Position numbers and translations under genes: made by a program. From Spiractinospora alimapuensis (GTDB taxonomy: Bacteria; Actinomycetota; Actinomycetes; Streptosporangiales; Streptosporangiaceae), in the NCBI RefSeq assembly GCF_018437505.1, contig NZ_CP072467.1, forward strand, positions 5,728,010 to 5,792,009: a DNA stretch of 64,000 bases, in the 5' to 3' direction. The notes under the pieces are model-generated. The model worked only from the letters and a program-made list of their open reading frames with translations, had not been told where the DNA came from and made no database searches. Of the stretch, positions 27,737 to 43,586 are shown piece after piece; positions within the stretch are counted from its first letter, which is position 1; every line of letters starts with the position of its first letter.

Positions 27737-28549
27737 TCAGCGCGTGCCGATCGGAACGACCAGAGGGCCGGCCGTCACCGGGTCGGGAATGACGGTGCAG
27801 TCGAGGCCGAAGATCTCGGCCACCAGGCCGGGCGTGAGGACTTCGGCCGGCGGGCCGCTCGCCCGGATCTCACCCCCGCGCATCGCGACAAGGAGGTCCG
27901 CGTAGCGCGCGGCCATGTTCAGGTCGTGCAGCACCATCACCACGGTGCGCCCATGGTCGCGGTTGAGCGTGGCCACGAGGTCCAGCACCTCGATCTGGTG
28001 GGACAGATCCAGATAGGTGGTCGGCTCGTCGAGCAGGAGAAGATCGGTCCCCTGGGCCAGGGCCATGGAGATCCACGCGCGTTGGCGTTGGCCACCGGAC
28101 AGTTGGTCCAGGGGGCGGGTCGCGAACTCCAACATGCCCGTCATCCCCAGCGCGTCGGCCACGACGTCGGCGTCCGTCGATGACCACTGGCGATACCACG
28201 CCTGGTGCGGATGGCGTCCGCGGGAGACGAGGTCGCCGACGGTGAGTCCCGGCGGGGCCTGCGGACTCTGCGGGAGAACGGCGATCGTGCGCGCCACTTC
28301 CCGCGGGGGAATGGAGGACAGGGGGCGCCCGTCCAGCGCCACCTGCCCGGACGTGGGACGCAGCAGCCGGCCCAACGCACGGAGCAGTGTCGACTTCCCA
28401 CACCCATTGGGGCCGATGATCGCGGTCACCGCGCCGTCCGCGACCCCGAAGTCGAGGCGATCCACGACGACGTGGTCGCCGTAGCCGAGCGTGGTGGCCT
28501 CCGCGCGCAGACGTGGTCCGGCGGTGGCGAGAGTCGGTTCGGGTGTCAC
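27737..28549 (-). CDS. Iron-siderophore ABC transporter ATP-binding protein
   Basis: Protein of 270 residues, FecE/FepC family. Walker A is GPNGCGKST, the signature is LSGGQRQRAW, Walker B is LLLLDEPTTYLDL and the switch is MVLHDLNMAARY. GTG 28549 overlaps the permease stop (GTGA), so three genes are coupled. It powers import of ferric siderophore through the two permeases encoded upstream. Confidence 0.95.
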   Translation of the reverse strand: MTPEPTLATAGPRLRAEATTLGYGDHVVVDRLDFGVADGAVTAIIGPNGCGKSTLLRALGRLLRPTSGQVALDGRPLSSIPPREVARTIAVLPQSPQAPPGLTVGDLVSRGRHPHQAWYRQWSSTDADVVADALGMTGMLEFATRPLDQLSGGQRQRAWISMALAQGTDLLLLDEPTTYLDLSHQIEVLDLVATLNRDHGRTVVMVLHDLNMAARYADLLVAMRGGEIRASGPPAEVLTPGLVAEIFGLDCTVIPDPVTAGPLVVPIGTR

Positions 28550-29676
28550 AGGCGGCCCTCCCGGTGCCGGGCGACGATCAGGTACATGAGGAACGGGGCG
28601 CCCAGGATCGCGGTGAAGATGCCCACCGGGAGCTGTGTGGGGGCGAACAGACCGGCCGCCACCTGGTCCGCCGCCAGGGTGAGGACACCCCCGAGCAGGG
28701 TCGCCGCCAGCAGCGGCGGCTGCGGGGTACGGCAGAGTCGCAACGCGATCTGGGGTGCCGCCAACGCCACGAAGGTGATGGGACCGGCGGCCGCCGTCGC
28801 CGCACAGGTGAGCAGGGCCGCGCCCACCAGCAGCCCGAGCCGCGCTCCGTTCACCCGCACGCCCAGGCCGCGCGCGGTGTCGTCCCCGAGACCGAGCGCG
28901 AACACGACACGTGCCGCCCCCAGGGACAGGGGAAGCAGTACGGCGAGCGCCACCGTGGCGGTCGCGACGCGGTCCCAGTCCGCCGCGTGCAGACTGCCGG
29001 TGAGCCATGTCTGCGCGCGGGCCGCGTCCTGCAGGTCGGTCCAGGTCAGAGCCCAGTAGACAAGGTTGCTGCAGACCAATGACGTGGCGACGCCGACCAG
29101 GAGCAGCCGGTTGCTCTGGACTCCGGACCGCCAGGACAGACCGAAGACGACCACCGCCGCCGCGAGCCCCCCGACGGCCGCCCCCATCGGTACCCCGACC
29201 TGGGCGACCGCGCCACTGATCCCGCCCGCGCTCCCGCCCAGCACGATCACGGCGACCGCACCCACCGACGCGCCCCAACCGATGCCCAGCGTGTCCGGGC
29301 TGGCCAACGGGTTGCGCGCGAGGCTCTGCAGGATCGCCCCGGCGAGCCCGAGCGCCGCGCCAACCAGCGCACCGGTCAACGCGCGGGGCATACGCAGCTC
29401 GAACACGACGAACCGTTGGCCACCGTCCCCGCCCCCCAGGAGGACCGCGAGGACGTCGGAGGTGCCCATCGGATAGTCGTCGAAGGACAACAACGCCCGC
29501 ACGAACACCACCGCCAGGACCCCGACCAGCGCCGCGCACACCAGCGCGCCGCGCGGGTGCCACGCCCACGAGACACGGCCAACCCGCAGGACCCGCCGAC
29601 CGGGCGGACGGTAGTCGCCGGTGGCCGGGGACGTCGACGCGGCGAGGTCGCCCGTGGGCTCGCTGGTGGCGGTCAC
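28546..29676 (-). CDS. Iron-siderophore ABC transporter permease (FecD-like)
   Basis: Protein of 376 residues of the FecCD family with about nine or ten transmembrane helices; typical segments are MPRALTGALVGAALGLAGAI and NPLASPDTLGI near the first third, and TAAAGPITFVALAAPQIA before the last helices. GTG 29676 overlaps the stop of the other permease by GTGA. The hydrophilic N-terminal ~40 residues are longer than usual. It forms a heterodimeric channel with its neighbour. Confidence 0.93.
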   Translation of the reverse strand: MTATSEPTGDLAASTSPATGDYRPPGRRVLRVGRVSWAWHPRGALVCAALVGVLAVVFVRALLSFDDYPMGTSDVLAVLLGGGDGGQRFVVFELRMPRALTGALVGAALGLAGAILQSLARNPLASPDTLGIGWGASVGAVAVIVLGGSAGGISGAVAQVGVPMGAAVGGLAAAVVVFGLSWRSGVQSNRLLLVGVATSLVCSNLVYWALTWTDLQDAARAQTWLTGSLHAADWDRVATATVALAVLLPLSLGAARVVFALGLGDDTARGLGVRVNGARLGLLVGAALLTCAATAAAGPITFVALAAPQIALRLCRTPQPPLLAATLLGGVLTLAADQVAAGLFAPTQLPVGIFTAILGAPFLMYLIVARHREGRL

Positions 29677-30731
29677 GACGCGATCACCCGGCTCCTGCGG
29701 ATCAGCACGATGAAGAACGGCCCGCCGAGGACCGCGAGCACGATCCCGACCTCGACCTCGCCGTTGCCCCGGATGACGCGTCCGATCACGTCGGCCACCA
29801 GGATGAGACAGGCACCCAGGAGCGTCGCGAACGGCAACAACCACCGGTGGTCCAGGCCCGTCACGGCGCGGGCGATGTGGGGAGCGGCGAGCCCGAGGAA
29901 GGCGATCGGTCCGGCGGCGGCCACTGCCGCGCCCGTCAGCAGCGCGACCCCGAGGACCCCGACCGCGCGGGTCAGTCGCACCCGCTGCCCCAGCGAGGTG
30001 GCGACGTCGTCGCCGAGGGCGAGCGCGTTCAGGCCGGGCGCGTTGGCCACGGCGAGGGCGAGCCCGGCCGCGACGAACGGCAGTACCTGCCACAGCACCT
30101 CCACCGGGCGTCCCGCGAGCGAGCCGACACGCCAGAACCGGTACACCTCGAGGCTGGCCTGGTCCAGGAGCACGATCGCCGAGGTGCAGCCGGTCAGAAG
30201 CGCCGTCATCGCCGCACCGGCCAGGACCAGCGTCACGGGGGTGGGGCCCCGGCTGCCAGCGGAGGCGACGGCGAACACCACGGCGGCCGTGAGCCCGGCG
30301 GCGCCGATGGCCAGCCAGATGTATCCGGTCAGTTCCGTGATGCCGAACAGGTACACGCCCAGCACTACGCCCAACGCCGCTCCGGAGCTCACCCCGAGGA
30401 GACCCGGTTCGGCGATGGGGTTGCGGGTGTGGCTCTGCATCAGGACGCCGGCCGCGCCCAGGGCGGCCCCGACCACGATCCCCAGCGCGGTGCGGGGAAC
30501 GCGCAGCGACCACACGACGGTGGATGCCTCCCCGCCGTCCGGCGCCGTCAGCGCCGCCCACACCTCGGCCGGCGCGAGCGTCCTACTGCCGAACAGGACG
30601 CCCGCGGCGACGCATAGCGCCAACAGGACGACCAGCGCGGCCAGGCCAAGGGGACGCCGCACGCGCGGTGACCCGAACGAACGCGCCATCCCCGGCGCCG
30701 CGGGGGACGCGGCGGGATCGGCCAGTGTCAC
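29673..30731 (-). CDS. Iron-siderophore ABC transporter permease (FecC-like)
   Basis: Protein of 352 residues, FecCD family, with VPRTALGIVVGAALGAAGVL, NPIAEPGLLGVSSGAALG and AAAGPIAFLGLAAPHIARA. GTG 30731 begins the minus-strand transporter operon; the 179 bp to the divergent binding-protein gene contain the iron box. Together with the second permease and the ATPase it makes a complete importer. Confidence 0.94.
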   Translation of the reverse strand: MTLADPAASPAAPGMARSFGSPRVRRPLGLAALVVLLALCVAAGVLFGSRTLAPAEVWAALTAPDGGEASTVVWSLRVPRTALGIVVGAALGAAGVLMQSHTRNPIAEPGLLGVSSGAALGVVLGVYLFGITELTGYIWLAIGAAGLTAAVVFAVASAGSRGPTPVTLVLAGAAMTALLTGCTSAIVLLDQASLEVYRFWRVGSLAGRPVEVLWQVLPFVAAGLALAVANAPGLNALALGDDVATSLGQRVRLTRAVGVLGVALLTGAAVAAAGPIAFLGLAAPHIARAVTGLDHRWLLPFATLLGACLILVADVIGRVIRGNGEVEVGIVLAVLGGPFFIVLIRRSRVIAS

Positions 30732-30851
30732 GGTCGGTGGCTCCTTGTCCAGGCCACGGGAGGGCGGAGAGCGACCCTCGTCTCATTTGCGGGCCACGTG
30801 TGGACATATGCGGTCACAGGCCCACATACTTCCTGATCGCGGATGATTATC

Positions 30852-30870
30852 TTAGGCAAGACAAACCTAA
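30852..30870. promoter_or_regulatory. IdeR/DtxR iron box
   Basis: The 19-bp sequence TTAGGCAAGACAAACCTAA matches 15 of 19 positions of the IdeR/DtxR consensus as I know it, with intact TTAGG and CCTAA ends. It sits 40 bp before the siderophore-binding-protein start, in the divergent promoter region, and should make the locus iron-repressed. Confidence 0.8.
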
Positions 30871-30910
30871 CTCATTGCCGTGTCATTCCTCGACTCAGGA
30901 AAGGGTCACC

Positions 30911-31891
30911 ATGCCCTCAGCTCGTCACCACCTGCCGGTCGCCGGCGGCGTGATCGCCCTCCTCCTCACCGCGGCGTGCGGGACGGACGCCGAAGGCGAC
31001 GAAACCCCCGCGGGCGACGGGGACTACCCGCTCACGGTCGAACACGCGATGGGGGAGACGGAGATCCCCGAGGTCCCGGAGACGGTGGTCGCACTCGACA
31101 CTACCTATCTCGACTCCGCCATCGCGCTGGAGGCCGAGGTCATCGGCCGCACCGACTACGCCGACAGCGGCGATATCCGGGACTACCTCGGCGAGGACGG
31201 ACAGACCTACGCCGGCGACGCCGAGGTGGTGGGCACGCTCGAGGCGCCCGACCTCGCCGCCATCGCCGCGTTGGAGCCGGACCTGATCCTCTCGGCGAAG
31301 GTGCGGCACGAGGACGTCTACGACCAGCTCGACGCCATCGCCCCCACCGTGTTCTCCGAGACCACCGGGGCCACGTGGAAGGAGAACCACCTGCTGGCGG
31401 GCGAGGCCCTGGGCCGCTCGGACCTCGCACGGGAGCAGGTCGACGACTACGAGGAACGCGCCGCCGCCCTCGGCGAGGAGATCGCCGCGGCCAACGGTGG
31501 CGACATGCCGACGATGACCCTCGCCCGCTTCGCCGGCGAGCCCACCGTGCGGCTCTACGCCCCCGAGTCCTACCCCGGGATCATCCAGGCCGACGTGGGA
31601 CTGGGGATTCCGGAGGAAGCTCCCGATGCCGCCGAGGGTGAGATCGCGGTGAACCTGAGCCAGGAGGAGATCCTGGACCTCGACGCCGACCACATCATGG
31701 TCTCCACCTGGGACGACGGCGCCGGGGAGTCGGAGGAGAAGGCGCAGGACTTCACCGGGAACCCGCTGTGGTCCCAGTTGGAGGGGGAGCAGCACGAGGT
31801 GAACGACGAGGTGTGGGTCAGCTCCGTGAGTCTCCCCGGGGCCAACAGCGTCCTCGACGAGATCGCCGACCTGTTCGACGTCCAGGCCTGA
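30911..31891 (+). CDS. Ferric-siderophore-binding lipoprotein
   Basis: Protein of 326 residues, periplasmic-binding-protein type 2 (FecB/FhuD-like). Signal peptide with lipobox TAAC, lipid on Cys23. The mature part has IPEVPETVVALDTTYLDSAI, DLAAIAALEPDLILSAKVR and a C-terminal helix, typical of class III binding proteins. GGAAAGG precedes ATG 30911. It is divergent from its permease/ATPase operon and shares the iron box with it. The siderophore type is not deducible; no biosynthetic genes are in the window. Confidence 0.93.
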   Translation: MPSARHHLPVAGGVIALLLTAACGTDAEGDETPAGDGDYPLTVEHAMGETEIPEVPETVVALDTTYLDSAIALEAEVIGRTDYADSGDIRDYLGEDGQTYAGDAEVVGTLEAPDLAAIAALEPDLILSAKVRHEDVYDQLDAIAPTVFSETTGATWKENHLLAGEALGRSDLAREQVDDYEERAAALGEEIAAANGGDMPTMTLARFAGEPTVRLYAPESYPGIIQADVGLGIPEEAPDAAEGEIAVNLSQEEILDLDADHIMVSTWDDGAGESEEKAQDFTGNPLWSQLEGEQHEVNDEVWVSSVSLPGANSVLDEIADLFDVQA

Positions 31892-31927
31892 CCGCCCGGG
31901 GCTCGTCACCCCACCACCGCACCACCA

Positions 31928-31960
31928 CGTGGGCGCGACCCGTCTCGGGTCGCGCCCACG
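31928..31960 (+). terminator. Strong hairpin terminator
   Basis: Perfect 15-bp stem (31928-31942 with 31946-31960) and a TCT loop, 37 bp after the siderophore-binding-protein stop. Confidence 0.75.
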
Positions 31961-32054
31961 GTCATGTCCGCCGAACCCCGCGCAGCCGCTCCGGTACGGC
32001 CCGCAGGAGTGGCGCGGGGTACGCCCGGGTCGTCCTCTCCCGCGAACTCATTGG

Positions 32055-32085
32055 TTGACAGATATCTGATATCTGAACTAATAAT
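32055..32085 (+). promoter_or_regulatory. Sialidase operon promoter with operator in the spacer
   Basis: A consensus -35 TTGACA (32055-32060) and a -10-like TAATAA (32079-32084) are separated by 18 bp. A 15-bp palindrome AGATATC-T-GATATCT (32060-32074) starts at the last base of the -35 box and fills most of the spacer. A repressor bound there would block RNA polymerase; the FadR-type regulator two genes downstream is the obvious candidate. Confidence 0.75.
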
Positions 32086-32111
32086 CTCCTAACGCGAGAG
32101 GAAGGTCACAC

Positions 32112-33320
32112 ATGACGGTCCCCCCACGGCGTCTCGCAGTCGCGTCCGCCTTCGTTGTCGGTCTCTCCCTCATCCACACGCCCGCCGCACACGCCGACTC
32201 GGCAGGCCCGGACCCGGTGGTCGTCTTCGAGTCCGGCACCGAGGGCTACGACACGTTCCGAATCCCCGCCATCACCCAAACCGACGACGGCACCCTGCTG
32301 GCGTTCGCCGAAGGACGGACGGACAGCGGCAGCGACCACGGAGACATCGACCTCGTCCTTCGCCGCTCCCACGACGACGGACGCACCTGGGGGGCACTCC
32401 AGGTCGTCGGCGACAACGGTCCCAACACGTTCGGTAACCCCGCTCCCGTCGTGGATCCCGCCTCTGGCGACATCGTGCTCCTCACGACGCACAACGCCGG
32501 TGAGGCCACCGAGGCCGAGATCATGCGCGGTGAAGTCACCGACGCCCAGACCCGACGCGTCCACCTGCAACGCAGCACCGACGACGGGGAGACCTGGTCG
32601 GAGCCGGAGGACATCACCGACGACGCGAAGCTGCCCGAGTGGCGGTGGTACGCCACCGGTCCGGGGCACGGCATCGCCCTGGAGGCGGAGCCGCACACGG
32701 GACGCCTCGTCATCCCCGCCAACCACTCGACCAGCCCCGACCCCGACACCGACGACACCGGCGCCGAGGACCACCACTACGGCTCCCACTCCCTCTACAG
32801 CGACGACGGCGGACGCACCTGGGACATCGGGGGTGTCGACACACCGATGGAGGGCGTCGTCAACCCCAACGAGAACACCGCGGTGGAACTCGCCAACGGT
32901 GACGTGTACTTCAACGTCCGGGACCAGAACGGTTCCAGCGACGGTGCCCGCGCCGCCACGATCAGCACCGACGGGGGCGCGTCGTTCGCCTCCCCCTTCG
33001 CGACCGTTCCCGACCTGGTGGCACCCCCGGTCCAGGGATCGGTCCTGCGCCTCAACGTCAACGCCAACGACCTGGTCGTCTTCTCCGCCCCCGGGGAGCC
33101 CGACGCGCGGCGCCGGCTGGCCCTGCGCGTCAGCTCCGACGACGCCCAGAGCTGGGAGGAGCGGGTGACCGTGTTCGACGGGCCCGTCGCCTACTCCGAC
33201 CTCACCACAACCGGCGGTCAGCACCTCGGTGTGCTCTTCGAGAACGGCGACGAACGGTCCTACGAACGCATCACCTACACGGCCGTCCCGTTCGGGCAAC
33301 TGAGGGCACCCGCGAACTGA
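32112..33320 (+). CDS. Secreted exo-alpha-sialidase
   Basis: Protein of 402 residues. Signal peptide with likely cleavage after AHA28. The catalytic arginine is in FRIP (Arg50), and SDHGDIDL (Asp75/78) probably gives the acid/base Asp. Asp-box repeats SHDDGRTW, STDDGETW, SDDGGRTW and a weaker SSDDAQSW mark the six-bladed propeller of GH33. It would release terminal sialic acids from glycoconjugates outside the cell for import by the transporter encoded downstream. AGGAAGG precedes ATG 32112. First gene of the operon. Confidence 0.93.
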   Translation: MTVPPRRLAVASAFVVGLSLIHTPAAHADSAGPDPVVVFESGTEGYDTFRIPAITQTDDGTLLAFAEGRTDSGSDHGDIDLVLRRSHDDGRTWGALQVVGDNGPNTFGNPAPVVDPASGDIVLLTTHNAGEATEAEIMRGEVTDAQTRRVHLQRSTDDGETWSEPEDITDDAKLPEWRWYATGPGHGIALEAEPHTGRLVIPANHSTSPDPDTDDTGAEDHHYGSHSLYSDDGGRTWDIGGVDTPMEGVVNPNENTAVELANGDVYFNVRDQNGSSDGARAATISTDGGASFASPFATVPDLVAPPVQGSVLRLNVNANDLVVFSAPGEPDARRRLALRVSSDDAQSWEERVTVFDGPVAYSDLTTTGGQHLGVLFENGDERSYERITYTAVPFGQLRAPAN

Positions 33321-33382
33321 CCCAGACGAGACAACCAGGCACACCGCGTGCCTGAGCGACAGCGATCGGAGCTGAGCCCACT

Positions 33383-34090
33383 GTGAGAGTCCCCCTGTTC
33401 CGCCAGGCCCAGGAGAGGCTGCGCCAACACATCCTCGACCACGGGCTCAGCCCCGGCGACCCTCTGCCCTCAGAGGGTGAGCTGGCGGAACAGTTCGAGG
33501 TGAGCCGCGCCTCGATGCGCGAGGCGACCCGAAGCCTCGAGTCGCTCGGAGTGATCGAGTCCCGTCACGGCAAGGGGCTCTACGTCGGGCAGTTCTCCTT
33601 CGCGCCGATCCTGGAACAACTGCCCTACGGGCTGCTCCTCAACGACGTGTCCTTCCGTGAGGTCCTGGAAGTGCGCCACGCCCTCGAGGAGCAGCTCATC
33701 CTCAAGGCGAGCAAACTCCTCACCGAGAAGGACCTGCGCGATCTCGGGGAGATCGTGCAGCGCATGCGCGACGAACAGGTGGACGGACGCCCACCGCCCG
33801 AGGTCGACTGGGAGTTCCACCAGCGCCTGTTCACGCCCCTGGGCAACCAGCTCGTCCTCGACATGATCGACATCTTCTGGCGGCTGTACAACCGCATCGG
33901 GGAACAACTACCGGGCCAACACCCCCACGCTGTCGAGGTACACGCCGACATCGTCGACGCCCTGGCGACCGGCGACCCCACGGCCATCACCACAGCGGTC
34001 ACCCGCCACTTCGTCGCCATCGAGCAGGCCGTCGAAGTCCACGAAGCCCGTTCCACCGCGACCGACGACAAGGAGCACCCCCACTCGTGA
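33383..34090 (+). CDS. GntR/FadR-family regulator (NanR-like)
   Basis: Protein of 235 residues. N-terminal GntR winged HTH (GDPLPSEGELAEQFEVSRAS, then MREATRSLESLG) and a C-terminal FCD-type helical domain (~80-225) with histidines that could hold a metal (DWEFHQRLF, VEVHADIVDAL, VTRHFVAIE). NanR of other bacteria belongs to this class and senses sialic acid. It lies inside the operon, 62 bp after the sialidase, and its stop overlaps the NanA-like start. The palindrome at 32060-32074 is its likely target. Confidence 0.9.
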   Translation: MRVPLFRQAQERLRQHILDHGLSPGDPLPSEGELAEQFEVSRASMREATRSLESLGVIESRHGKGLYVGQFSFAPILEQLPYGLLLNDVSFREVLEVRHALEEQLILKASKLLTEKDLRDLGEIVQRMRDEQVDGRPPPEVDWEFHQRLFTPLGNQLVLDMIDIFWRLYNRIGEQLPGQHPHAVEVHADIVDALATGDPTAITTAVTRHFVAIEQAVEVHEARSTATDDKEHPHS

Positions 34091-35025
34091 GAGGGATCCT
34101 CCCGGCCCTGATGACCGGCTACGACGCCGACGGCGAGGTCGACACCCGCGCCACCCAAGCGCTGGTGGACCATCTCCTCCACGCCGGCGTGCACGGGCTG
34201 TTCGTCGGCGGCACCTCCGCCGAGGGCGTCGCCCAGTCGGTTGCGGAGCGCGAACACCTGCTCTCCGCCTCCATCGGCCACGTCGCCGGCGCGGTTCCGG
34301 TCGTCGCCCACGTCGGCACGCTCGCCACCCGCACCACCGTGGAACTCGCCCGGCACGCCCAGCGGTCCGGCGCGGCCGCGGTCGCCGCGGTCACCCCGTT
34401 CTACTTCGAGCTGAACGACGCCGCGCTGGCAGACCACTACCGGGCGCTCCACGCGGCGGTGGACGTGCCGGTGTACCTCTACCACATCCCCTCCCTGACC
34501 GGCCGATCCCTCGAAAGCGCGTGGATCCTCGACCTCGCGCACGAGGGAGTCATCGCCGGCATGAAGTACAGCGCCGACGACCTCGAGTTCCTGCGTCAGG
34601 TGACCACGCACGCCCCCGAGGGGTTCGTGGTACACAACGGCGCCGACGACGTGCTCATGGACGGGCTGTTGAGCGGCGCCGTCGGTGGCGTGGGGTCGTC
34701 CTACAACGTGATGCCGGAACTCTACGTCGCCCTCTTCGAGGCCGTAAGGGAGGGCCGCACCGACGACGCCCGCGCGGCGCAGAACGCCGCGAATGCCGTC
34801 CTCGCCACCTTGCGCAACTACAACTTCCTGGCCTTCCTGCGCGAGGTCCTGCACCTCCAAGGGATCGACCTGGGCGTGAGCCGCAGACCCCTGCCCGCGC
34901 TCACCGAGGCGGAACGAGCCGACATCACCGCCTGGCTCGACACCGCCCCCGCCGCGGTCGTGGCGCGAGCGACGCCCGACCGTGCCGCAGCCGTGCGACA
35001 GACACGGCGCCTCCCGGACCAGTAA
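34087..35025 (+). CDS. N-acetylneuraminate lyase-like protein (DapA family)
   Basis: Protein of 312 residues, class I aldolase TIM barrel. The Schiff-base Lys160 is in AGMKYSADD, the proton-relay Tyr132 in LYHIPSLTG, and the carboxylate-binding loop is GGTSAEG (41-47). Context (sialidase, sugar importer) argues for cleavage of sialic acid to ManNAc and pyruvate rather than lysine biosynthesis. GTG 34087 overlaps the regulator stop. Genes for the later steps (nanE, nanK, nagA, nagB) are not in the window. Confidence 0.87.
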   Translation: MRGILPALMTGYDADGEVDTRATQALVDHLLHAGVHGLFVGGTSAEGVAQSVAEREHLLSASIGHVAGAVPVVAHVGTLATRTTVELARHAQRSGAAAVAAVTPFYFELNDAALADHYRALHAAVDVPVYLYHIPSLTGRSLESAWILDLAHEGVIAGMKYSADDLEFLRQVTTHAPEGFVVHNGADDVLMDGLLSGAVGGVGSSYNVMPELYVALFEAVREGRTDDARAAQNAANAVLATLRNYNFLAFLREVLHLQGIDLGVSRRPLPALTEAERADITAWLDTAPAAVVARATPDRAAAVRQTRRLPDQ

Positions 35026-35045
35026 CGGAAGCTGGTGAAAGCCAC

Positions 35046-36401
35046 ATGATCACCCCCCACCCCTCGGCTCCTCGCACCGAAACCCCGCGGCGGGGGCCGC
35101 ACCGTACGCCGCGCGGCGGCGCCCTCCTCGCGGCGGGAGCCCTGCTCCTCACCGCGTGCTCCAACGGTGGCGCCCAGGAGGACGCCGACCTCGAGGAGGC
35201 GTCGGCCGACCTCCAGGTGGTCTGGCCGGGGACCTCCGACGTCGAGATGGCCGTGGCCGAGGACTTCCAGGCCGACATCGCCGAGATCAACGAGGACGTG
35301 CGCCTGGAGTACGACTACATGTCCTGGGACGACATGCAGGACCAGCTGGCCATCCAGATCCAGGCGGGCAACCCGCCCGACGTCACCATGACCCAGGACG
35401 TCACCGACCTGGTGCGCCTCGGCGGTCTCATGGAGCTCGACGACAACCTCGCGGAGAGCTCCCTGGACGCCGAGGAGTTCCGGCCCGGGACGTTGGAGTA
35501 CACCACCAGGGACGACAGCCTCTACGCGCTGCCCTACCTCGCCCAGGCCTTCACGTTGATCGTCAACGAGGACCTGCTGGCCGACGCGGGTCTGGAAGTC
35601 GAGGACCTACAGACCTGGGAGGAGCTCGAAGAAGCCGCCGAGGCGATGACGACCGACGATACCTACGGCTTCGCGTTCCCCATGGGGGAGGCCCGCTTCG
35701 CGTTCCGCGGGATGATGACCGCCGCCTACAGCAACGACCTCCTCATGGACGACACCGGGCCCGAGTTCGAGGAGCGCTGGGTCGAGCTGCTGGACCACCT
35801 GGACACGCTGCGGGAGTACCGACCCAACGCCGACGCCACATGGGATTACTCCGACATGTTCCGGGCCTACGCCAACGGTGAGGTCGGGATGATTCCCGCG
35901 GGGACCTTCTTCACCGCCAACGTCTACGAGCTCAATCCGGACATCGTCGGGGCGTCCCGCCAGCTCGCCTACCCCCGTGGGCCCTCCGCGGAGGAGACAC
36001 GTGCCCCCGTCTCCACGGTCGGCTACGGCGTCTTCGCCGACAGCGACACCCCCAACCTGTCCTGGCAGATCGTGCAGCGACTCGTCGACGACGAGTGGGT
36101 CGCCCGGCAGGCGGCGGTGGTACACGTGCCCGCGCGCGACACCGTGACGATGGACGACATCCGCCCCCAGATCGAGGAGGTCTACCCGGACGCGGTCGAG
36201 GGGCAGGAACAGCAGATCACCGACGCGATGGAGCTCATCGACTCAGACGGCGTCCCGCTGGAGCCGGTCGTCGGCCAGTCCGCGATGGAGCCGGAGGTCC
36301 AGGAGGTGCTGCGAGACCTCAGCGACGGCGACATCGCCAGCGACGAGGCCTACGCACTGCTGATGGAGCGCATCACCGAGGTTCAGGAGAACCAGGATTG
36401 A
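35046..36401 (+). CDS. Sugar (sialic acid?) ABC substrate-binding lipoprotein
   Basis: Protein of 451 residues, extracellular solute-binding protein family 1. Signal peptide with lipobox LTAC, lipid on Cys38. The mature part shows QLAIQIQAGNPPDVTMTQDV, LYALPYLAQAF and NGEVGMIPAGTFF, typical of oligosaccharide or carboxylated-sugar binders. It is 20 bp after the NanA-like gene and followed by two permeases. The ligand is inferred from context as sialic acid released by the sialidase. Confidence 0.9.
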   Translation: MITPHPSAPRTETPRRGPHRTPRGGALLAAGALLLTACSNGGAQEDADLEEASADLQVVWPGTSDVEMAVAEDFQADIAEINEDVRLEYDYMSWDDMQDQLAIQIQAGNPPDVTMTQDVTDLVRLGGLMELDDNLAESSLDAEEFRPGTLEYTTRDDSLYALPYLAQAFTLIVNEDLLADAGLEVEDLQTWEELEEAAEAMTTDDTYGFAFPMGEARFAFRGMMTAAYSNDLLMDDTGPEFEERWVELLDHLDTLREYRPNADATWDYSDMFRAYANGEVGMIPAGTFFTANVYELNPDIVGASRQLAYPRGPSAEETRAPVSTVGYGVFADSDTPNLSWQIVQRLVDDEWVARQAAVVHVPARDTVTMDDIRPQIEEVYPDAVEGQEQQITDAMELIDSDGVPLEPVVGQSAMEPEVQEVLRDLSDGDIASDEAYALLMERITEVQENQD

Positions 36402-36412
36402 GCGGCGTCGCG

Positions 36413-37369
36413 ATGGCTGACGCGCCCCCCGACCGGGGAAGCCAGCACACCCGGCGCGTCCGGCGCGGCGGAGCCGGTGTCCGGTTCCGCCGCTGGTTCC
36501 ACCAGCGTGGCTTCTGGCTCATGCTCATGGCGCCCGTCCTACTGTACCTCCTCCTCGCCCAGTACTACCCGCTGAGCGAGACGGTGCGGCTGAGCTTCTT
36601 CGACCATAGGCTGACCAGCCCGGAGCCACAGCGCTTCACCGGTTTGGACAACTACCGCCAACTGTTCTTCGAGGACCGTGTCTTCTGGTCCATCGTCGGC
36701 AACAGTCTCATCTGGGTTCTGGGGTCGACCGGGCTTCAGCTCGCTACCGGCACCCTGTTCGCGGTCGTCCTGAACCAGTCGGTGCGGCTCCGCGGACTGT
36801 GGCGGGGCCTGCTCATGGTCCCCTGGGTCATGCCCGTGGTCGTCGTCGCCATCGTGTGGCGGTGGATCTTCGACGGCGAGTTCGGGCTCGCCAACCACTA
36901 TCTACTCCAGGCCGGAATCCTCTCCGAACCGGTCGTGTGGCTGGGCTCCGAGACCTGGGTGTGGGTCGTGTTGTTGCTCGCCGGCGTCTGGATGGGCACC
37001 CCGTTCGTGACGCTCCTCGTCCTCGCCGCGCTCCAAGGCATCCCGGACGCGGTCCTGGAGGCGGCCGACGTCGACGGTGCCTCCAGGTGGCAGCGCTTCT
37101 GGTTCGTCATCCTGCCGATGTTGCGCCCGACCCTCTTCATCGCCGGCATGATCGCGCTGGTGGTGACGTGGTTCAAGTTCGAACTCATCTGGGCGTTGAC
37201 CAACGGCGGACCGGGGTTCGCCACCAGCATCCTGCCCACCTACGTGTACTCGCGGGCGTTCCAGGACTTCGACTTCGGACTCGCCGGAGCGGTCGCGACG
37301 ACCGCGATGGTGATCGTCGTGCTGGTGGCCGGACTGGTCGCGGGCCTGTTCGCGAGGAGGCGAGGCTGA
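36413..37369 (+). CDS. ABC sugar permease, MalF-type
   Basis: Protein of 318 residues with about six transmembrane helices and the EAA loop AADVDGASRWQRFWFVILP. It pairs with the next gene, which overlaps it by TGATG. ATG 36413 was taken; an in-frame TTG at 36398, overlapping the binding-protein stop and with AGGAGA upstream, may be the true start. Part of the putative sialic acid importer. No ATPase gene is in the operon, so a shared MsiK-like ATPase is expected. Confidence 0.9.
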   Translation: MADAPPDRGSQHTRRVRRGGAGVRFRRWFHQRGFWLMLMAPVLLYLLLAQYYPLSETVRLSFFDHRLTSPEPQRFTGLDNYRQLFFEDRVFWSIVGNSLIWVLGSTGLQLATGTLFAVVLNQSVRLRGLWRGLLMVPWVMPVVVVAIVWRWIFDGEFGLANHYLLQAGILSEPVVWLGSETWVWVVLLLAGVWMGTPFVTLLVLAALQGIPDAVLEAADVDGASRWQRFWFVILPMLRPTLFIAGMIALVVTWFKFELIWALTNGGPGFATSILPTYVYSRAFQDFDFGLAGAVATTAMVIVVLVAGLVAGLFARRRG

Positions 37370-38208
37370 TGACCCACCAGCAGGGAAACGTGGTCGTCCG
37401 GTACGGATCGCTGGCCCTGGTCATGGGCTTCATCCTGTTGCCGGGACTGTGGCTGCTCGTCTCCTCCTTCGAGTCCAACCGGACCCTCTTCGCCTCCGAA
37501 CCCACGTGGTGGCTGGAGGACGGCACCCTGGAGAACTACGCGTGGGCGATCGGTGGCCGGGGCCTCGACATCGGCGGGCTGATGGTCAACTCACTGATCG
37601 TGTGCGCCCTCACCGCGCTCATCACCGCGATCTTCGCCTGCCTCGCCGGCTACGGCCTCGCCCGCTACCAGGGGTGGGGCGCCCGGATCGCGATCGTCGT
37701 CCTGCTCGTCGCCCAGATGGTGCAGGGCCCGATGATCACGCTGCCGTGGTACCAGATCGCGATGAACCTGGACCTCCTGGACACCCGAACCATCCTCGTC
37801 CTCGTGTACCAGACCATCACCCTGCCGGCGGCGGTCTGGCTGATGAGCGGCTTCTTCCGCAGCATCCCCCGCGACCTCGAGGACGCCGCCTACGTCGACG
37901 GCGCCTCCCGCCTGCGAACCCTCATCACCGTGGTCCTCCCCCTGGCGAAACCGGGAATCACCGCGATCGCCCTCTACGCCTTCATCCTCGCCTGGAACGA
38001 CTACCAGTACGCCCTCATATTCACCAGCACCCCCGGCACCCGCACCGTCCAGATCGGCATCGCCCAAGTCATGGCCAGCCTCGGCGCCACCAACTGGGGA
38101 GGCATCCTCGCCGCCGGAGTCCTCGCCGTCATCCCCGTCATCGTCCTGTTCGCCCTCGCCCAACGCACCCTCATCCAGGGCCTGACCAGCGGAGCGGTGA
38201 AGCACTGA
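37369..38208 (+). CDS. ABC sugar permease, MalG-type
   Basis: Protein of 279 residues with about six transmembrane helices and the EAA loop EDAAYVDGASRLRTLITVVL, followed by PLAKPG and the typical FILAWNDYQYAL. Start codon overlaps the preceding stop. It forms the transmembrane heterodimer with the MalF-type subunit and is the last gene of the operon before a bidirectional hairpin. Confidence 0.93.
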   Translation: MTHQQGNVVVRYGSLALVMGFILLPGLWLLVSSFESNRTLFASEPTWWLEDGTLENYAWAIGGRGLDIGGLMVNSLIVCALTALITAIFACLAGYGLARYQGWGARIAIVVLLVAQMVQGPMITLPWYQIAMNLDLLDTRTILVLVYQTITLPAAVWLMSGFFRSIPRDLEDAAYVDGASRLRTLITVVLPLAKPGITAIALYAFILAWNDYQYALIFTSTPGTRTVQIGIAQVMASLGATNWGGILAAGVLAVIPVIVLFALAQRTLIQGLTSGAVKH

Positions 38209-38253
38209 GCCAGGGAGAAGGACGCCGGTACGATCGATACCCGCAGGTTCGCC

Positions 38254-38288
38254 CCCCTGGCCCCCGAGAAGATGCGTCGGGCCAGGGG
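38254..38288. terminator. Bidirectional hairpin terminator
   Basis: CCCCTGGCCC (38254-38263) and GGGCCAGGGG (38279-38288) form a 10-bp stem between two convergent genes. Confidence 0.6.
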
Positions 38289-38302
38289 ACGATCGGGGGG
38301 TG

Positions 38303-39571
38303 TTACGTCGACGGGGTGGGGCTGGCCGTGGAGTCGTCGGCTACCTGGATCACGCCGCGGGCGGCGAGGTCGGCGATGGTGGTGTCGTCGAGGCCCAGCT
38401 CCTCGCGGAGGATTTGTTGGGCGTGGGCGTTGGGGGCCGCGCCGGGGTGGCGGATGGAGCCGGGGGTGGCGCTCAGGCGGGCGATGAGGCCCTGCATCCG
38501 GACGGGGCCCAGGGTCGGGTGGTCGACCGAGGTCACGCTTCCGCGCTCGTTGAAGTGCGGGTCGTCGCTGATGTCGGCGATGGAGTAGACCGGGCCGACG
38601 GTGGCGCCGACCTCGTCGAAGGTCGCGAGCACCTCGTCGTTGTCGCGCTCGGCGATCCACGAGGCGATGGCCTCGTCCAATTCGTCGCGATGGGCGATCT
38701 TGCCGGCCATGTCGTCGAACCACGGGGCGTCGGCGAGGTCGTCGCGTCCGACGGCGCGCATGATGCGCTTGCCGGTGACCGTCGTGGCGCCCGACAGCGC
38801 GACCCACCGGCCGTCACGGGTCTGGTAGCAGCCCCGGGGGACGGTGAAGGCGGTCCGGTTGCCCTGGCGCTCGGGGACCAGACCAAGTTGGTCGTAGGCG
38901 GTGGTCTGGGCACCGAGAATCCAGAACAGGGGCTCGTAGATGGACATGTCCACGACCTGTCCCTCGCCGGTGCGCTCCGCGTGCCGCAACGCGGTCATCG
39001 TCGCGAAGGCTCCCGCCACCGCGGTCACACCGTCCGCGAGCGGCCACTGCGGCAGCAGCGGTGACCCCTCGGGCGTGCCGTTGGTGTCGGCGAACCCGGA
39101 GATCGCCTCGGCCAGGGTGCCGAAGCCGGGCCGGGAGCGATAGGGCCCGGTCTGACCGAAGCCCGAGACCCGCACCACCACCAGGCGGGGGTTGATCTCC
39201 CACAGGCTCTCCGGGGAGAGACCCCACTTCTCCAGGGTGCCCGGGCGGAAGTTCTCGACGAACACGTCCGCGTCCGCCAGGAGCCGACGCACCAGGTCGG
39301 CGCCTCGCGGCTCGGACAGCGAGAGGGAGATGGTCCGCTTGTTGCGGTTGGCCACCGCCCACCACAGCGACTCGCCGTCCTTGTGCCACGCCCAGTTCCG
39401 CAACCCGTCGCCCCGTGGGTGCTCGACCTTGATCACGTCGGCGCCGTAGTCACCGAGCAACGTCGCGAGCATGGGGCCGGCGTAGATGGTGGCGGCGTCC
39501 ACCACCCGCACTCCGTCGAGGGGCCCGTGGTGGGCGTTCCGGGGCACCGATTCCTGGTGCGTTTCAGACAT
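38303..39571 (-). CDS. CaiB/BaiF family III CoA-transferase
   Basis: Protein of 422 residues. N-terminal GVRVVDAATIYAGPMLATLL, GADVIKVEHPRGD and NKRTISLSLSEPRG are standard; the catalytic Asp is in GEGQVVDMSIYE. It moves CoA between carboxylic acids. With the 2HCT transporter behind it and a CitE-like lyase nearby, the acceptor may be malate, citramalate or a related hydroxy-diacid (inference). It follows the transporter gene on the same strand with 24 bp between them, so the two are co-transcribed. Confidence 0.92.
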   Translation of the reverse strand: MSETHQESVPRNAHHGPLDGVRVVDAATIYAGPMLATLLGDYGADVIKVEHPRGDGLRNWAWHKDGESLWWAVANRNKRTISLSLSEPRGADLVRRLLADADVFVENFRPGTLEKWGLSPESLWEINPRLVVVRVSGFGQTGPYRSRPGFGTLAEAISGFADTNGTPEGSPLLPQWPLADGVTAVAGAFATMTALRHAERTGEGQVVDMSIYEPLFWILGAQTTAYDQLGLVPERQGNRTAFTVPRGCYQTRDGRWVALSGATTVTGKRIMRAVGRDDLADAPWFDDMAGKIAHRDELDEAIASWIAERDNDEVLATFDEVGATVGPVYSIADISDDPHFNERGSVTSVDHPTLGPVRMQGLIARLSATPGSIRHPGAAPNAHAQQILREELGLDDTTIADLAARGVIQVADDSTASPTPST

Positions 39572-39595
39572 CCGGTCGAGGAACCTTTCTTCGCG

Positions 39596-40942
39596 TCAGG
39601 TGAGGAAGGGGAGAAGGAAGGACAGGAGGAGCAATACGAGGGCCCCACCGATTCGGCTTGAGACCTGCATGAACGGCATCAGTTCGAGACGGTTCGAGGC
39701 GCTCACGACGGCGACGTCGCCGGTACCGCCCATGTCGGTGGTGCCCAGACCCACGGCGACCGAGGTCTCGACGAAGTACATGCGCACGAGCCACCCGGCG
39801 ATGCCGGCGATCAGTGTCGCGGTGAGGACGCCGACCGCGGTGAGTGCGAGGTGGGCGGGGTTGGAGAGCAAGGAACCGAGCATGCTGAGGTCAAGCAACG
39901 AGACCCCGATACCGACCAGGAGGGCGGGGGTGAGCCGGCCGGCGACGAAGCCGTACCAACCGCCAACGGCCTCGGTCATGAACTCGGGCAGGATGTTGAA
40001 GATCTTGAGTAGTGCGGCGGCGAGGATCGTCCAGGCGTAGCCGTGCACCTCGGGCACGAAATGGTTGATGATCTGGCCGAAGATGAACAGCGCTCCGGTG
40101 AGGGCGAGCCCGACGGCCATCGGACCGAAGAACGCCCCGGTCGGACGTGGCGGTACCCGGAAGTCGTCGGAGGATTTGCTGCCACCACGGACCAGCACTC
40201 CCTGCCCGTCGAAACCGGGAAAATACTGTCGATGCTTCTTCGTGAGGCCACCCCAGACTCCGGCGATGAGAATCGCCAGTGTGTTGGCGACCACGACGGC
40301 CGGGACAAGGCGTGACATGTGATCGGCGGAGGACCCGTCCAGCGCGGCGGCGTACATCTCCGACATCGGAACGGCGCCGGCCCCGATGCCGCCTCCGACA
40401 ACCGGGGCCGCGACGAACAGGATCGCGTCACGGAAGCCGAACCCGAAGAGGGCGCCGAGACCGCCGACGACCGCGAACACCGACAGGATGACCGTGACCA
40501 GAGGGAAGGCGTAGCGTGCGCCCGCCTTGATGAGCAGTGCGCGCGGCATGGTGAGGATGCTGCCGGCGATCAGCGATCCGACGTAGAAGTCGAGGAACCC
40601 GCTCTCGGTCGTGAAGTCCTCAATCACAACCGCCAGATTCGAAGGGAACGCGTTGACCAGCATCAATACTGGCGGAAGGAGGATACACAGCAATGTTGGA
40701 AGACCGAAGTCGCGCAGGACGGGAACGCGTTCACCGATCCAGTACAGCAGGTTTCCGATCAGTACCACCGCGGTGAAGCCGACGATCATGGTCGACTCGA
40801 GGGCCCCGATGGCGACAGCGACCGCGAGAACGGCGAACAACGCCACGAACCACGGCCAGGGGAGTCCCATGATGCGACGAGCGTCGTCCGGTGACTCTAT
40901 GGGGGAGTCCGGCACGCTCTTGGGGGGCGCATCCTGTTTCAT
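39596..40942 (-). CDS. 2-hydroxycarboxylate transporter (CitS/2HCT family)
   Basis: Protein of 448 residues with about eleven transmembrane helices. The two re-entrant loop signatures are visible: GGGIGAGAVPMSEMY in the first half and GGTGDVAVVSASNR in the second, with the binding-site Arg in the last helices (VSSRIGG). The family carries citrate, malate, lactate or citramalate with Na+ or H+. CAGGAG precedes ATG 40942. First gene of the unit with the CoA-transferase; the 519-bp divergent region upstream is shared with the dehydrogenase gene. Confidence 0.93.
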   Translation of the reverse strand: MKQDAPPKSVPDSPIESPDDARRIMGLPWPWFVALFAVLAVAVAIGALESTMIVGFTAVVLIGNLLYWIGERVPVLRDFGLPTLLCILLPPVLMLVNAFPSNLAVVIEDFTTESGFLDFYVGSLIAGSILTMPRALLIKAGARYAFPLVTVILSVFAVVGGLGALFGFGFRDAILFVAAPVVGGGIGAGAVPMSEMYAAALDGSSADHMSRLVPAVVVANTLAILIAGVWGGLTKKHRQYFPGFDGQGVLVRGGSKSSDDFRVPPRPTGAFFGPMAVGLALTGALFIFGQIINHFVPEVHGYAWTILAAALLKIFNILPEFMTEAVGGWYGFVAGRLTPALLVGIGVSLLDLSMLGSLLSNPAHLALTAVGVLTATLIAGIAGWLVRMYFVETSVAVGLGTTDMGGTGDVAVVSASNRLELMPFMQVSSRIGGALVLLLLSFLLPFLT

Positions 40943-41461
40943 CGTCTACTCCTGGAAGAACATCAGCGTTCTACTGACCTCTCGCGGTCATCGCTCCCAC
41001 GGGGCGCGGAGAGGGTGAGGGCGTATCGGGCGAGGTCATGAACCGGAACGGTCGGTCGGAGCATGTGTATCACAAGTTTGATCAAATGAGAATGCATCGC
41101 GTTCGTGGCCGAACGAGAAGGGTGAGGGGGGTCGGCGGTCAGCCGATCCGCGGGGGAGGCGAGTCCGGGGTCCTCCTCCCCGTCGTCCTGTTGGGGGCTC
41201 GGAGACGGGTTCTCCCCCCGTTGACACTTGTCCCTGGTCGATGCGTCAATACGAGGACAGCGGGCGCCAAGGCCACATCGCGACCCGGAGCGCGGGCGAG
41301 CTCGTCGACGGCGCCAAGGAGGGGCCCGAACGTGGGGATGGAGGGCGTGCGGCCGAGCCATCGTTCCACGGCAACGCTGCGTCAATTTAATATAATCTCC
41401 GCTCCTGAACGTGGCGAAGCACCGCGTGGGAGCCGTGACGGGACTGGGCCGAGGAGGCCGA
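40943..41461. promoter_or_regulatory. Divergent control region with GntR-type palindrome
   Basis: No gene. Contains the perfect palindrome TTTGATCAAA (41077-41086) some 135 bp before the transporter start, and an AT-rich patch with TATAAT (41391-41396) before the dehydrogenase gene. These are candidate operator and promoter elements for the two divergent units; the GntR regulator at 43722 may bind the palindrome. Confidence 0.5.
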
Positions 41462-42580
41462 TTGAGCGAGAACGCCCCCTATGACATCGCTGTTCTCCGT
41501 GGGGACGGAGTGGGGCCCGAGGTGGTCGACGAGGCGTGCAAAGCACTGGACGCCGCCGTCGCGACCGTGCCCGGGCTCGCCCTCACCGTCACCGAGTGGG
41601 AGGCCGGCGTCGGCCTCTACGCGCGGACCGGAGAGGCGCTACCGACGGAGACCTACGACGCCGTCCGCGCGGCCGACGCCACGCTGCTCGGCGCGATGGG
41701 ACTGCCCGACGTCCGCGCCGAGGACGGGACGGAGATCCAGGGGCGGGTGACCATCGGGCTGCGCACGTCCCTCGGCCTGTACGGCGGGATCCGGCCCATC
41801 AAGCTGTACCCGGGCATCACCCCCAGGATCGACGCGCTGGGACCGGTCGACCTCGTCGTGGTCCGGGAGAACACCGAGGGGCTCTTCGCGTCCTTCGACG
41901 GCGGTGCCGGGATCGCCGACCACGTCGTGGGCGACACCGCGCTGATCAGTCGGGCGGGCACCGAGCGCGTGACCCGGCGCGCCTTCGAGCTCGCGGCGGC
42001 GCGACCGGGGCGCCCCTCGGACGGGACACCTCTCGTCACCTGTGTGGACAAGGCGAACATCTTCCGCTCCCAGGCGTTCTTCCGTCGGGTGTTCACCGAG
42101 GTCGCCACCGGCGAATACCCGTCCGTCCCCCACGAGTTCGCCCTGGTGGACGCGCTCTCGCTGTCGGTCCTGCAGCGACCGGAGACCTACGACGTGCTCG
42201 TCACCGAGAACATGTTCGGCGACATCATCTCCGACCTGGCGACCGTCCTGATCGGCGGTCTGGGGATGGCCCCCTCCGGTGACGTCGGGGACCGCCACGC
42301 CCTGTTCCAGCCTTCGCACGGCTCGGCACCCGACCTCGTCGGTCGGGGTGTCGCCAACCCGCTCGCCACCGTGCTGTCCGCCGCCATGATGTTGGACTGG
42401 CTCGCCGACCGACACGACGACCCCGCCGCCCGCGCCGCCGCGCGGATGGTCGACGACGCCGTCGCCACCGTCACCGCGCACGGCACGGTGACCCCCGACC
42501 TGGGGGGACGCGCCTCCACAGTGGAGGTCGGCGACGCGGTGGCCGCGGTCATCCGGGAGTCGCCGGTCCCCAACGTCTGA
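41462..42580 (+). CDS. Isocitrate/isopropylmalate/tartrate dehydrogenase family enzyme
   Basis: Protein of 372 residues from TTG 41462, chosen for the strong GAGGAGG upstream (GTG 41411 would add 17 residues). Family motifs: LRGDGVGPEVVDEACKAL, RENTEGLF, the Lys in VDKANIFR, NMFGDIISDLA and QPSHGSAPDL. It oxidatively decarboxylates 2-hydroxy-3-substituted diacids with NAD(P)+ and a divalent metal. Context outside leucine biosynthesis (2HCT transporter, CoA-transferase, CitE-like lyase) points to D-malate, tartrate or a related diacid. It is 104 bp before the lyase gene. Confidence 0.9.
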   Translation: MSENAPYDIAVLRGDGVGPEVVDEACKALDAAVATVPGLALTVTEWEAGVGLYARTGEALPTETYDAVRAADATLLGAMGLPDVRAEDGTEIQGRVTIGLRTSLGLYGGIRPIKLYPGITPRIDALGPVDLVVVRENTEGLFASFDGGAGIADHVVGDTALISRAGTERVTRRAFELAAARPGRPSDGTPLVTCVDKANIFRSQAFFRRVFTEVATGEYPSVPHEFALVDALSLSVLQRPETYDVLVTENMFGDIISDLATVLIGGLGMAPSGDVGDRHALFQPSHGSAPDLVGRGVANPLATVLSAAMMLDWLADRHDDPAARAAARMVDDAVATVTAHGTVTPDLGGRASTVEVGDAVAAVIRESPVPNV

Positions 42581-42683
42581 GCCCGGCCGCCCCTCGATCC
42601 ACCCACCCGCAGGAGAAGTGCGGTGGCCCGCCGGGACGCCGTCGCCGCGCCGCCTCACTCGTACTCACGCACTGGAGAGAACG

Positions 42684-43586
42684 ATGCCCCCGACCACCCC
42701 CAGCACCGCCGAACTCACCCGCCGGTTGCGCACGGTGCTGTTCGTCCCCGGAGACCGCCCGGACCGCATCCCCAAGGCCGCGGCCAGCGGGTCCACCGCC
42801 ATCGCCATCGACCTCGAGGACGCCGTCGCGGAGTCCCGCAAGGAGGAGGCCCGCCAGCACACGGTGGACGCCATCACGGCCCTGCCCACCGACGGACCAC
42901 TCGTCGCGGTCCGGGTCAACGCGCCCGACACCGGCCTCGCCGACGGCGACGTCGCCGCCCTTGCCGACGTGCTCCACCGCGTCGACGCGGTCATCGTGCC
43001 GATGAGCAGCGCCCCAGAGCAGGTTCGCCACGTCTCGGGCCTACTGGCCGACGCCGAGGAACGGGCCGGCGTCGCCCCGGGACGCGTCCGGCTGATCCCC
43101 CTGGTCGAGACGGCGCGCGGGATCCTCGACGCCCGCGAAGTCGCCGCCGCCGACCCGCGCGTCCTGACGATGTCCTTCGGCCCGGCGGACCTCTCCCACG
43201 AGCTCGGCGTGGTCCCCACCGCCGAGGGGGGCGAACTCGCCGTGGCCCGGTCCCTCCTGGTCCTGGCAGCCGCGGCCGCGAACCTGCCCCGGCCGATCGA
43301 CGGCCCCCACCTGGACCTCGACGACGAGGCCGGACTCCGTGTGTCGGCACGCCGGGCCCGCGCCCTGGGCTTCGCCGGCAAACAGGTCATCCACCCCCGC
43401 CAGATCCCGGTGGTCGCCGACGTCTTCGCGCCGACGGCCGACGAGGTGGCGTGGGCCCGTCGGGTGGACGAGGCGTTCGGCGCGGCCGAGCGAACGGGGG
43501 TGTCGTCCATCCGCCTGGAGGACGGGACCTTCGTCGACTATCCGATCGCGGCCCGGGCGCGCGCCATCCTCGCCGAAGCGCGATAA
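42684..43586 (+). CDS. CitE-like (HpcH/HpaI aldolase) acyl-CoA lyase
   Basis: Protein of 300 residues. Motifs of the CitE/malyl-CoA lyase group: LFVPGDRPDRIPKA, AIDLEDAV, LIPLVETARGI and KQVIHPRQIP. Such enzymes split malyl-CoA or citramalyl-CoA into acetyl-CoA plus glyoxylate or pyruvate. The CaiB-type CoA-transferase on the other side of the locus could supply the thioester. GAGAGA precedes ATG 42684. It ends 15 bp before a hairpin. Confidence 0.9.
   Translation: MPPTTPSTAELTRRLRTVLFVPGDRPDRIPKAAASGSTAIAIDLEDAVAESRKEEARQHTVDAITALPTDGPLVAVRVNAPDTGLADGDVAALADVLHRVDAVIVPMSSAPEQVRHVSGLLADAEERAGVAPGRVRLIPLVETARGILDAREVAAADPRVLTMSFGPADLSHELGVVPTAEGGELAVARSLLVLAAAAANLPRPIDGPHLDLDDEAGLRVSARRARALGFAGKQVIHPRQIPVVADVFAPTADEVAWARRVDEAFGAAERTGVSSIRLEDGTFVDYPIAARARAILAEAR

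Follow-up and report, generated by a model that had tools for sequence, protein, structure and literature searches.

A window of 64,000 nucleotides from the genome of Spiractinospora alimapuensis (5.86 Mb, one contig, completeness 96.9%; the sole member of its genus in the compared genome set) was analysed for an operon of six genes that begins with a secreted sialidase and very probably serves to scavenge nonulosonic acids. Gene families in the window were assigned by Pfam and NCBIfam profile models and by matches to PDB chains; open reading frames and Pfam placed all six genes on the + strand at 32112–38208. The first gene (32112–33320) encodes a secreted sialidase of glycoside hydrolase family 33 (GH33; Pfam BNR_2, 8e-41), classed from its motifs and PDB alignments as the Arg type described below. 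It is followed by a GntR/FCD regulator (33383–34090; Pfam GntR 1.5e-19, FCD 2.2e-21), a NanA-like lyase (aldolase; 34087–35025; Pfam DHDPS family, 4e-64), a lipoprotein substrate-binding protein of the SBP_bac_1 family (35046–36401; Pfam 8e-26), in which LLLTAC was read by eye as an apparent lipobox, and two ATP-binding cassette (ABC) permeases (36413–37369, Pfam BPD_transp_1 1.2e-20, starting at TTG 36398 or ATG 36413; 37369–38208, Pfam BPD_transp_1 8.7e-16). The regulator and lyase genes overlap at GTGA (34087–34090) and the two permease genes at TGATG (37367–37371), and gaps of 62 and 20 bp separate the sialidase from the regulator and the lyase from the binding protein, respectively. A first-pass annotation of this DNA had named a secreted GH33 sialidase with FRIP motif and Asp boxes, which was found at the place and on the strand claimed, as well as the FadR-type regulator, the NanA-like lyase and both overlaps, all of which were located. 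Its three-part ABC importer holds good if a binding protein and two permeases are meant, but no ATPase gene lies within the operon (an MsiK-like ATPase elsewhere in the genome was not searched for). The gene annotation of 32112–38208 also contains no nanK, which was not searched for elsewhere in the genome.

A search of the whole 5.86-Mb genome for NanE (PF04131), which had been proposed as a check on the first-pass annotation, gave no match; in a control of 14 known genomes the search gave a match in eight, above the cut-off in six. The sole protein of the N-acetylglucosamine (GlcNAc)-2-epimerase family (PF07221) is encoded at ~3.86 Mb, ~1.9 Mb away from the operon. It scored 401.6 bits as a D-mannose isomerase (below the cut-off of 600) and 25.2 bits as an N-acylglucosamine 2-epimerase (AGE), and the solved structures that match it best are isomerases of the YihS type. 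Since NanE is absent and the PF07221 protein is D-mannose-isomerase-like, N-acetylmannosamine (ManNAc) has no recognised onward route in this genome. The operon could not be upheld as self-contained, with NanE absent genome-wide and neither nanK nor an ATPase gene within its bounds, and N-acetylneuraminic acid (Neu5Ac) was not supported as the substrate; as for the proposed import of free sialic acid, the gene families lend good support to the scavenging of a sugar resembling sialic acid. PMC8754123 (cited, like all PMC sources below, from the available part of its text) defines the pathway by clustered nanA/K/E or by nanA with nanE-II and rokA. The operon holds neither this complete canonical nan system nor the Bacteroidetes-type pathway, in which nanE-II/AGE is clustered with nanA and accompanied by rokA (rokA was not searched for).

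Regions around lyase, sialidase and NanE genes were fetched from relatives and the genes were labelled by homology and hidden Markov models (HMMs); 200 genomes of the family were searched, later 345, and the lists of lyase and sialidase matches hold the best matches. NanE was above the cut-off in 28 of the 200 genomes (complete list, 42 matches). In the 12 canonical clusters fetched, lyase, NanK and NanE lie together, in most cases accompanied by a GntR regulator and an importer resembling SatABCD. Cassettes of sialidase and lyase without NanE in the stretch were found at 45 places, made up of a first set of 13 (the window and genomes G175, G165, G060, G007, G151, G114, G088, G089, G121, G090, G472 and G526) and 32 of the 40 places fetched in the genus of G472, which were top-scoring, non-random places with G472 and G526 left out. 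In at least 180 of 295 genomes of this genus a sialidase was matched with an E-value of 1e-12 or lower; neither NanE nor NanK occurs in any of the 40 stretches (9.7–18 kb, some ending at contig ends), and at the eight places where no lyase lies near the sialidase none exceeds 250 bits (L157, 115 bits). The genome-wide search for NanE covered 13 of the 45, namely the first set, and NanE is missing in ten of these genomes; NanK is missing from the 13 cassettes, that of G151 aside. PF07221 gave one strong match (G007), two weak partial matches and none in nine among the 12 cassette genomes other than that of the window. The importers of the NanE-free cassettes are SatABCD-like, of the major facilitator superfamily (MFS) or, in the window, SBP_bac_1, and a GH42-family gene is present in six of the 13 (G175, where it was confirmed by Pfam, G165, G151, G088, G089 and G090). 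The constant feature of the cassettes seems to be a lyase product that is independent of NanE. The arrangement had been described as uncommon; the sialidase–lyase–importer cassette proved frequent in the related actinomycetes examined, and what remains unusual is an SBP_bac_1 importer together with a lyase nearer to the E. coli NanA type.

These counts bear on ordinary Neu5Ac scavenging, in which the lyase would yield pyruvate and ManNAc and the ManNAc would be excreted or taken by an unrecognised enzyme. The GH33 and NanA families act mostly on Neu5Ac, the model closest to the regulator is NanR and the lyase retains the catalytic Tyr and Lys; against this stand the lack of NanE in ten of the 13 cassette genomes, the lack of a recognised AGE-like protein in the genome of the window and of PF07221 in nine of the 12 others, and the 12 NanE-type clusters, in which the lyase has NanK and NanE as neighbours. 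Neu5Ac as the substrate is thus rather unlikely.

Four groups of stretches were left out of the count of the two kinds of cluster: L065–L068, L071 and L072 (lyase with neither partner), L117, L118 and L120–L125 (eight of ten sialidase stretches, without a lyase), L127, L129 and L130 (three of five NanE stretches, without a modelled lyase) and L131, L132, L134 and L135 (sialidase without lyase, some at contig ends). In the first group a relative of the lyase lies beside a GntR gene, with SatABCD-like transporter pieces in most and MFS in L068, and sialidase, NanK and NanE are absent within the stretch. A strict non-overlap of the two kinds, drawn from coordinates only for ten sialidase-linked and 13 NanE-linked lyases, was given up on finding a sialidase near three of the 12 NanE-type clusters; because those sialidases are of the other type, the non-overlap is limited to Arg-type sialidases.

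The sialidase is the sole match to BNR_2 (PF13088) in the whole genome. Its N-terminus looks by eye like a Sec signal, FRIP occupies residues 49–52, four Asp boxes start at residues 86, 155, 230 and 285, and NENTAVE (253), NVRDQ (268) and AYSDL (360), which we take to be the context of the catalytic Arg, Glu and Tyr, complete the pattern of GH33. In the alignment with 2xcy, R148 falls on chain position 151, which we take to be Arg171 of the Aspergillus fumigatus Kdnase, a residue that presumably contacts the C5 hydroxyl of 2-keto-3-deoxynononic acid (Kdn) and excludes the N-acetyl group. With this numbering and this enzyme name assumed, R148 places an Arg at the position expected of a Kdnase. 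When the N-terminal half was used as the query, the top six chains were of fungal type (7p1b, 7p1q, 2xcy, 7p1v, 4m4n and 4m4v); their depositors name them sialidases, and we assume them to be Kdnases. The alignment with 4m4v begins just past R148, and this chain is presumably a mutant at the aligned Arg position. With the whole sialidase as the query, the Sialidase-1 chain 8du5 and NEDA (1eur) led and a fungal chain came third. Single-sequence structure prediction gave a mean predicted local distance difference test (pLDDT) score of only 33.6.

Arg stands at the R148 place in 16 of 16 cassette sialidases in one alignment, in L116, L119 and L133, and in all 40 sialidases fetched from the genus of G472. 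At this place the three sialidases found near NanE clusters carry Thr, Leu and Leu, and their motif is GDPS instead of GNP-PVVD; NEDA has Leu and Bacteroides-type enzymes have Ala. A tree of 62 sialidases split the 59 that come from sialidase–lyase or sialidase-only stretches from the three near NanE clusters with support 0.83, and the sialidase change itself may have been a single event. A Kdn-preferring sialidase has been described in A. fumigatus (PMC5778107). SBP_bac_1 importers in nan clusters have been assigned to the ST7 group, which is specialised for 2,7-anhydro-Neu5Ac (PMC8754123), and the window importer is of this family and lies beside a nanA-like gene. Uptake of 2,7-anhydro-Neu5Ac through such a family-1 importer is nevertheless scarcely credible: the sialidase matches hydrolytic enzymes at ~1e-34 and anhydrosialidases at ~1e-11, the operon contains neither NanOx (not searched for elsewhere in the genome) nor an IT-sialidase, and NanE would still be required.

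The lyase keeps Y132 and K160, corresponding to the Tyr and the Schiff-base Lys of NanA, and reads N184-G185-A186-D187-D188 where its best PDB match (8u8w, an N-acetylneuraminate lyase) reads N-G-Y-D-E. It falls under both NCBIfam cut-offs for N-acetylneuraminate lyase (217.6 of 281 and 178.7 of 382 bits) and is 32–40% identical to the lyases of 19 related clusters. None of the active-site stretches examined cleanly separates NanE-type from sialidase-type clusters, and the lyase tree (n = 57) needs three label changes, 200 label shuffles giving a mean of 11.2 and a least value of 8; the lyase was therefore dropped as a discriminator of cluster kinds and says little about the substrate. One sialidase type is thus combined with more than one lyase lineage and with three importer types. 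A lyase query over wider genome contigs returned 27 loci (23–38% identity), of which, by HMM, L037 alone has NanE and L038 alone a sialidase of full strength; L033 has a sialidase-like match of 32 bits. In L038 (276–3084, a Chloroflexi bin) a sialidase that is extended at its N-terminus comes directly after the lyase. A second DHDPS-family protein in the window is weak (51 bits; 44472–45401, − strand), and its homologue (L108:6185–7063, − strand) directly adjoins the lyase of the cassette without NanE in G088.

A substrate such as 3-deoxy-D-manno-octulosonic acid (Kdo) or a related 3-deoxy-ulosonic acid, with plant pectin as one conceivable source, would be split into pyruvate and arabinose and would likewise make NanE unnecessary, and Kdo hydrolases exist in GH33. 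The Arg-type sialidases, however, resemble the fungal enzymes that we assume to be Kdnases, the GH42 partner in six cassettes suits a galactose-containing polymer and no pectin gene was recognised among the annotated neighbours, which leaves Kdo a very improbable substrate even though it is cleaved by NanA and human NPL (PMC13220900). According to the same source, the efficiency of E. coli NanA is about equal on Kdn and on Neu5Ac, and cleavage of Kdn yields mannose.

From the gene content, gene families, catalytic signatures, absence of NanE and recurrence of NanE-free sialidase–lyase cassettes, all of which were computed directly, we infer substrate, import, products and regulation. A sugar without an N-acetyl group, Kdn being the likeliest, is indicated by the lack of a recognised ManNAc-to-GlcNAc route in the genome; our confidence in Kdn itself is evenly balanced. 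The secreted exo-sialidase would free the nonulosonic acid, the lipoprotein-dependent ABC importer, with an ATPase supplied from elsewhere in the genome, would bring it in, and the NanA-like lyase would split it into pyruvate and a six-carbon sugar. For Kdn, this sugar would be D-mannose, which could enter central metabolism directly. In the walls of Streptomyces the main polymer is teichulosonic acid, which is built from galactose and Kdn (PMC11481543, PMC7831098), and the GH42 gene in six cassettes fits a galactose-containing polymer.

The organism may make such a sugar itself, since its own genome contains at 4,454,000–4,473,500 (L141:6326–10677, − strand) a group of genes for NeuB, a cytidylyltransferase–HAD fusion, an alpha-2,8-polysialyltransferase family protein and GT2. 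By eye, no NeuC-like gene was recognised among the neighbours of this group, which may make Kdn or a relative. The group at ~4.46 Mb speaks for self-recycling, in which the operon would turn over a putative Kdn-type wall polymer of the organism itself instead of serving to feed on others; a regulated operon with an importer equally suits scavenging, and self-recycling is considered improbable.

Several observations weigh against the scavenging of Kdn by these cassettes. Three of the 13 cassette genomes (G175, G007 and G151) do have NanE, the cassette of G151 carries on the other strand a ROK-family protein that scores 346 bits with the NanK model, the G090 stretch stops at a contig end inside the lyase, and G590 has NanE plus two Arg-type sialidases away from it. 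Arg-type sialidases have no nearby lyase at eight of ten places in G472, G526, G590, G678 and G696 (L117, L118 and L120–L125, with an ambiguous residue at the Arg position of L125) and at eight of 40 in the genus of G472, and six of 16 stretches in one lyase set have the lyase with neither sialidase nor NanE. Because the Arg-type sialidases form one clade, the split of sialidase types amounts to few evolutionary events, and the Fisher test values obtained take no account of kinship. The sialidase beside the lyase in L038 has a non-Arg residue, read by eye, at the Arg148 place, and the Leu-type NEDA cleaves Kdn glycosides (PMC11727334), so that Kdn can be cleaved without this Arg. Among the solved relatives of the PF07221 protein, 2afa was deposited as an NAG isomerase; the genome is 96.9% complete, and a divergent epimerase would escape the search. 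Some 88% of the Kdn in bacteria occupies internal positions in polymers (PMC7845648), beyond the unaided reach of an exo-enzyme; the window cassette has no beta-galactosidase gene and the SBP_bac_1 importer family is not tied to Kdn.

Upstream of the sialidase gene a candidate promoter was read from the sequence (TTGACA at 32055–32060 and TAATAAT at 32079–32085; 32055–32085, + strand). The single promoter of the first-pass annotation is plausible to this extent, although a strict promoter scan of 31850–38350 called none. A perfect 17-bp palindrome, CAGATATCTGATATCTG (32059–32075), lies between the promoter elements and is a candidate operator of the GntR/FCD regulator, for which the closest NCBIfam model is the NanR subfamily (88.8 bits, below the cut-off of 260). 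In shuffles of the 220-nt gap upstream of the operon, an 8+1+8 palindrome arose in 134 of 20,000 and a palindrome with any 0–4 spacer in 142 of 5,000; at these rates it is suggestive only. The motif was found in none of 11 relative loci, and no operator common to the relatives was found. The regulator probably acts as a repressor at this palindrome and would be released by the sugar or its product. An inverted repeat at 31928–31960 (15-bp arms, 3-nt loop, no T run), detected by sequence search, sits after the gene for a siderophore-type binding protein and is a possible terminator that would part this gene from the operon; the terminator scan did not call it. The gene in question belongs to a siderophore-type ABC system at 27737–31891 (two permeases and an ATPase recognised by eye, binding protein PF01497) that ends before the operon. 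On the other side, the operon is adjoined at 38303–43586 by a class III CoA-transferase and a 2-hydroxycarboxylate transporter (Pfam) together with an isopropylmalate/isocitrate-type dehydrogenase and a CitE-like lyase (by eye), perhaps an organic acid catabolic group.

Free-living actinobacterial nan clusters, their ST3, MFS and ST7 importers and their FadR-type regulators have already been published (PMC8754123). Kdn is nowhere mentioned in that paper, which remarks that other nonulosonic acids may be the targets of some clusters. Of the 1,969 species surveyed there, 613 have a sialidase and 418 have nanA/K/E, 158 of the latter without a sialidase; by subtraction, about 353 species possess a sialidase but lack the nanA/K/E trio. 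We tentatively propose, with somewhat more doubt than confidence, that a widespread second kind of sialidase operon in actinomycetes serves to feed on Kdn taken from teichulosonic acid in the walls of other actinomycetes, by means of an Arg-type GH33 Kdnase, with or without a beta-galactosidase, and a lyase giving pyruvate and mannose. Each operon would use one of three unrelated importers, the window being the version with the family-1 importer, and this kind would have escaped notice because nanE is what surveys use to define the pathway. The open-access literature yielded no description of an actinomycete cassette that lacks NanE and is directed at Kdn, subscription papers being mostly outside the coverage. 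If the cassettes do feed on Kdn, part of the gap of sialidases without a pathway would be explained, a recycling pathway for a major actinomycete wall polymer would become visible, and calls of sialic acid catabolism from sialidase and nanA alone would need revision.

With the canonical actinobacterial nan cluster (ST3/SatABCD; PMC8754123) the window operon shares a FadR/GntR–FCD regulator, a lyase, an importer and, in some cases, a sialidase; unlike it, the operon has no NanK or NanE and uses SBP_bac_1 with two permeases and without an ATPase. Its lyase is of the same family as the E. coli-type NanA and has the same catalytic Tyr and Lys, but differs in having Asp for the Glu of NGYDE and in its sub-cut-off scores. 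The Arg and the GNP-PVVD motif are common to the sialidase and to the fungal GH33 enzymes 2xcy, 7p1b and 7p1q, which we take to be Kdnases, the activity of the window enzyme being predicted from sequence; we know of no comparable operon in fungi. The NanE-free cassettes of relatives share with the window the Arg-type sialidase (58.5% identity to that of G060), the lyase and the absence of NanE in the stretch. A GntR-family regulator is present in 11 of the 12 cassettes that make up the rest of the first set and in 18 of the 32 in the genus of G472, and the other NanE-free cassettes differ from the window in having a SatABCD-like SBP_bac_5 or an MFS importer and, in some, a GH42 gene and a second sialidase.

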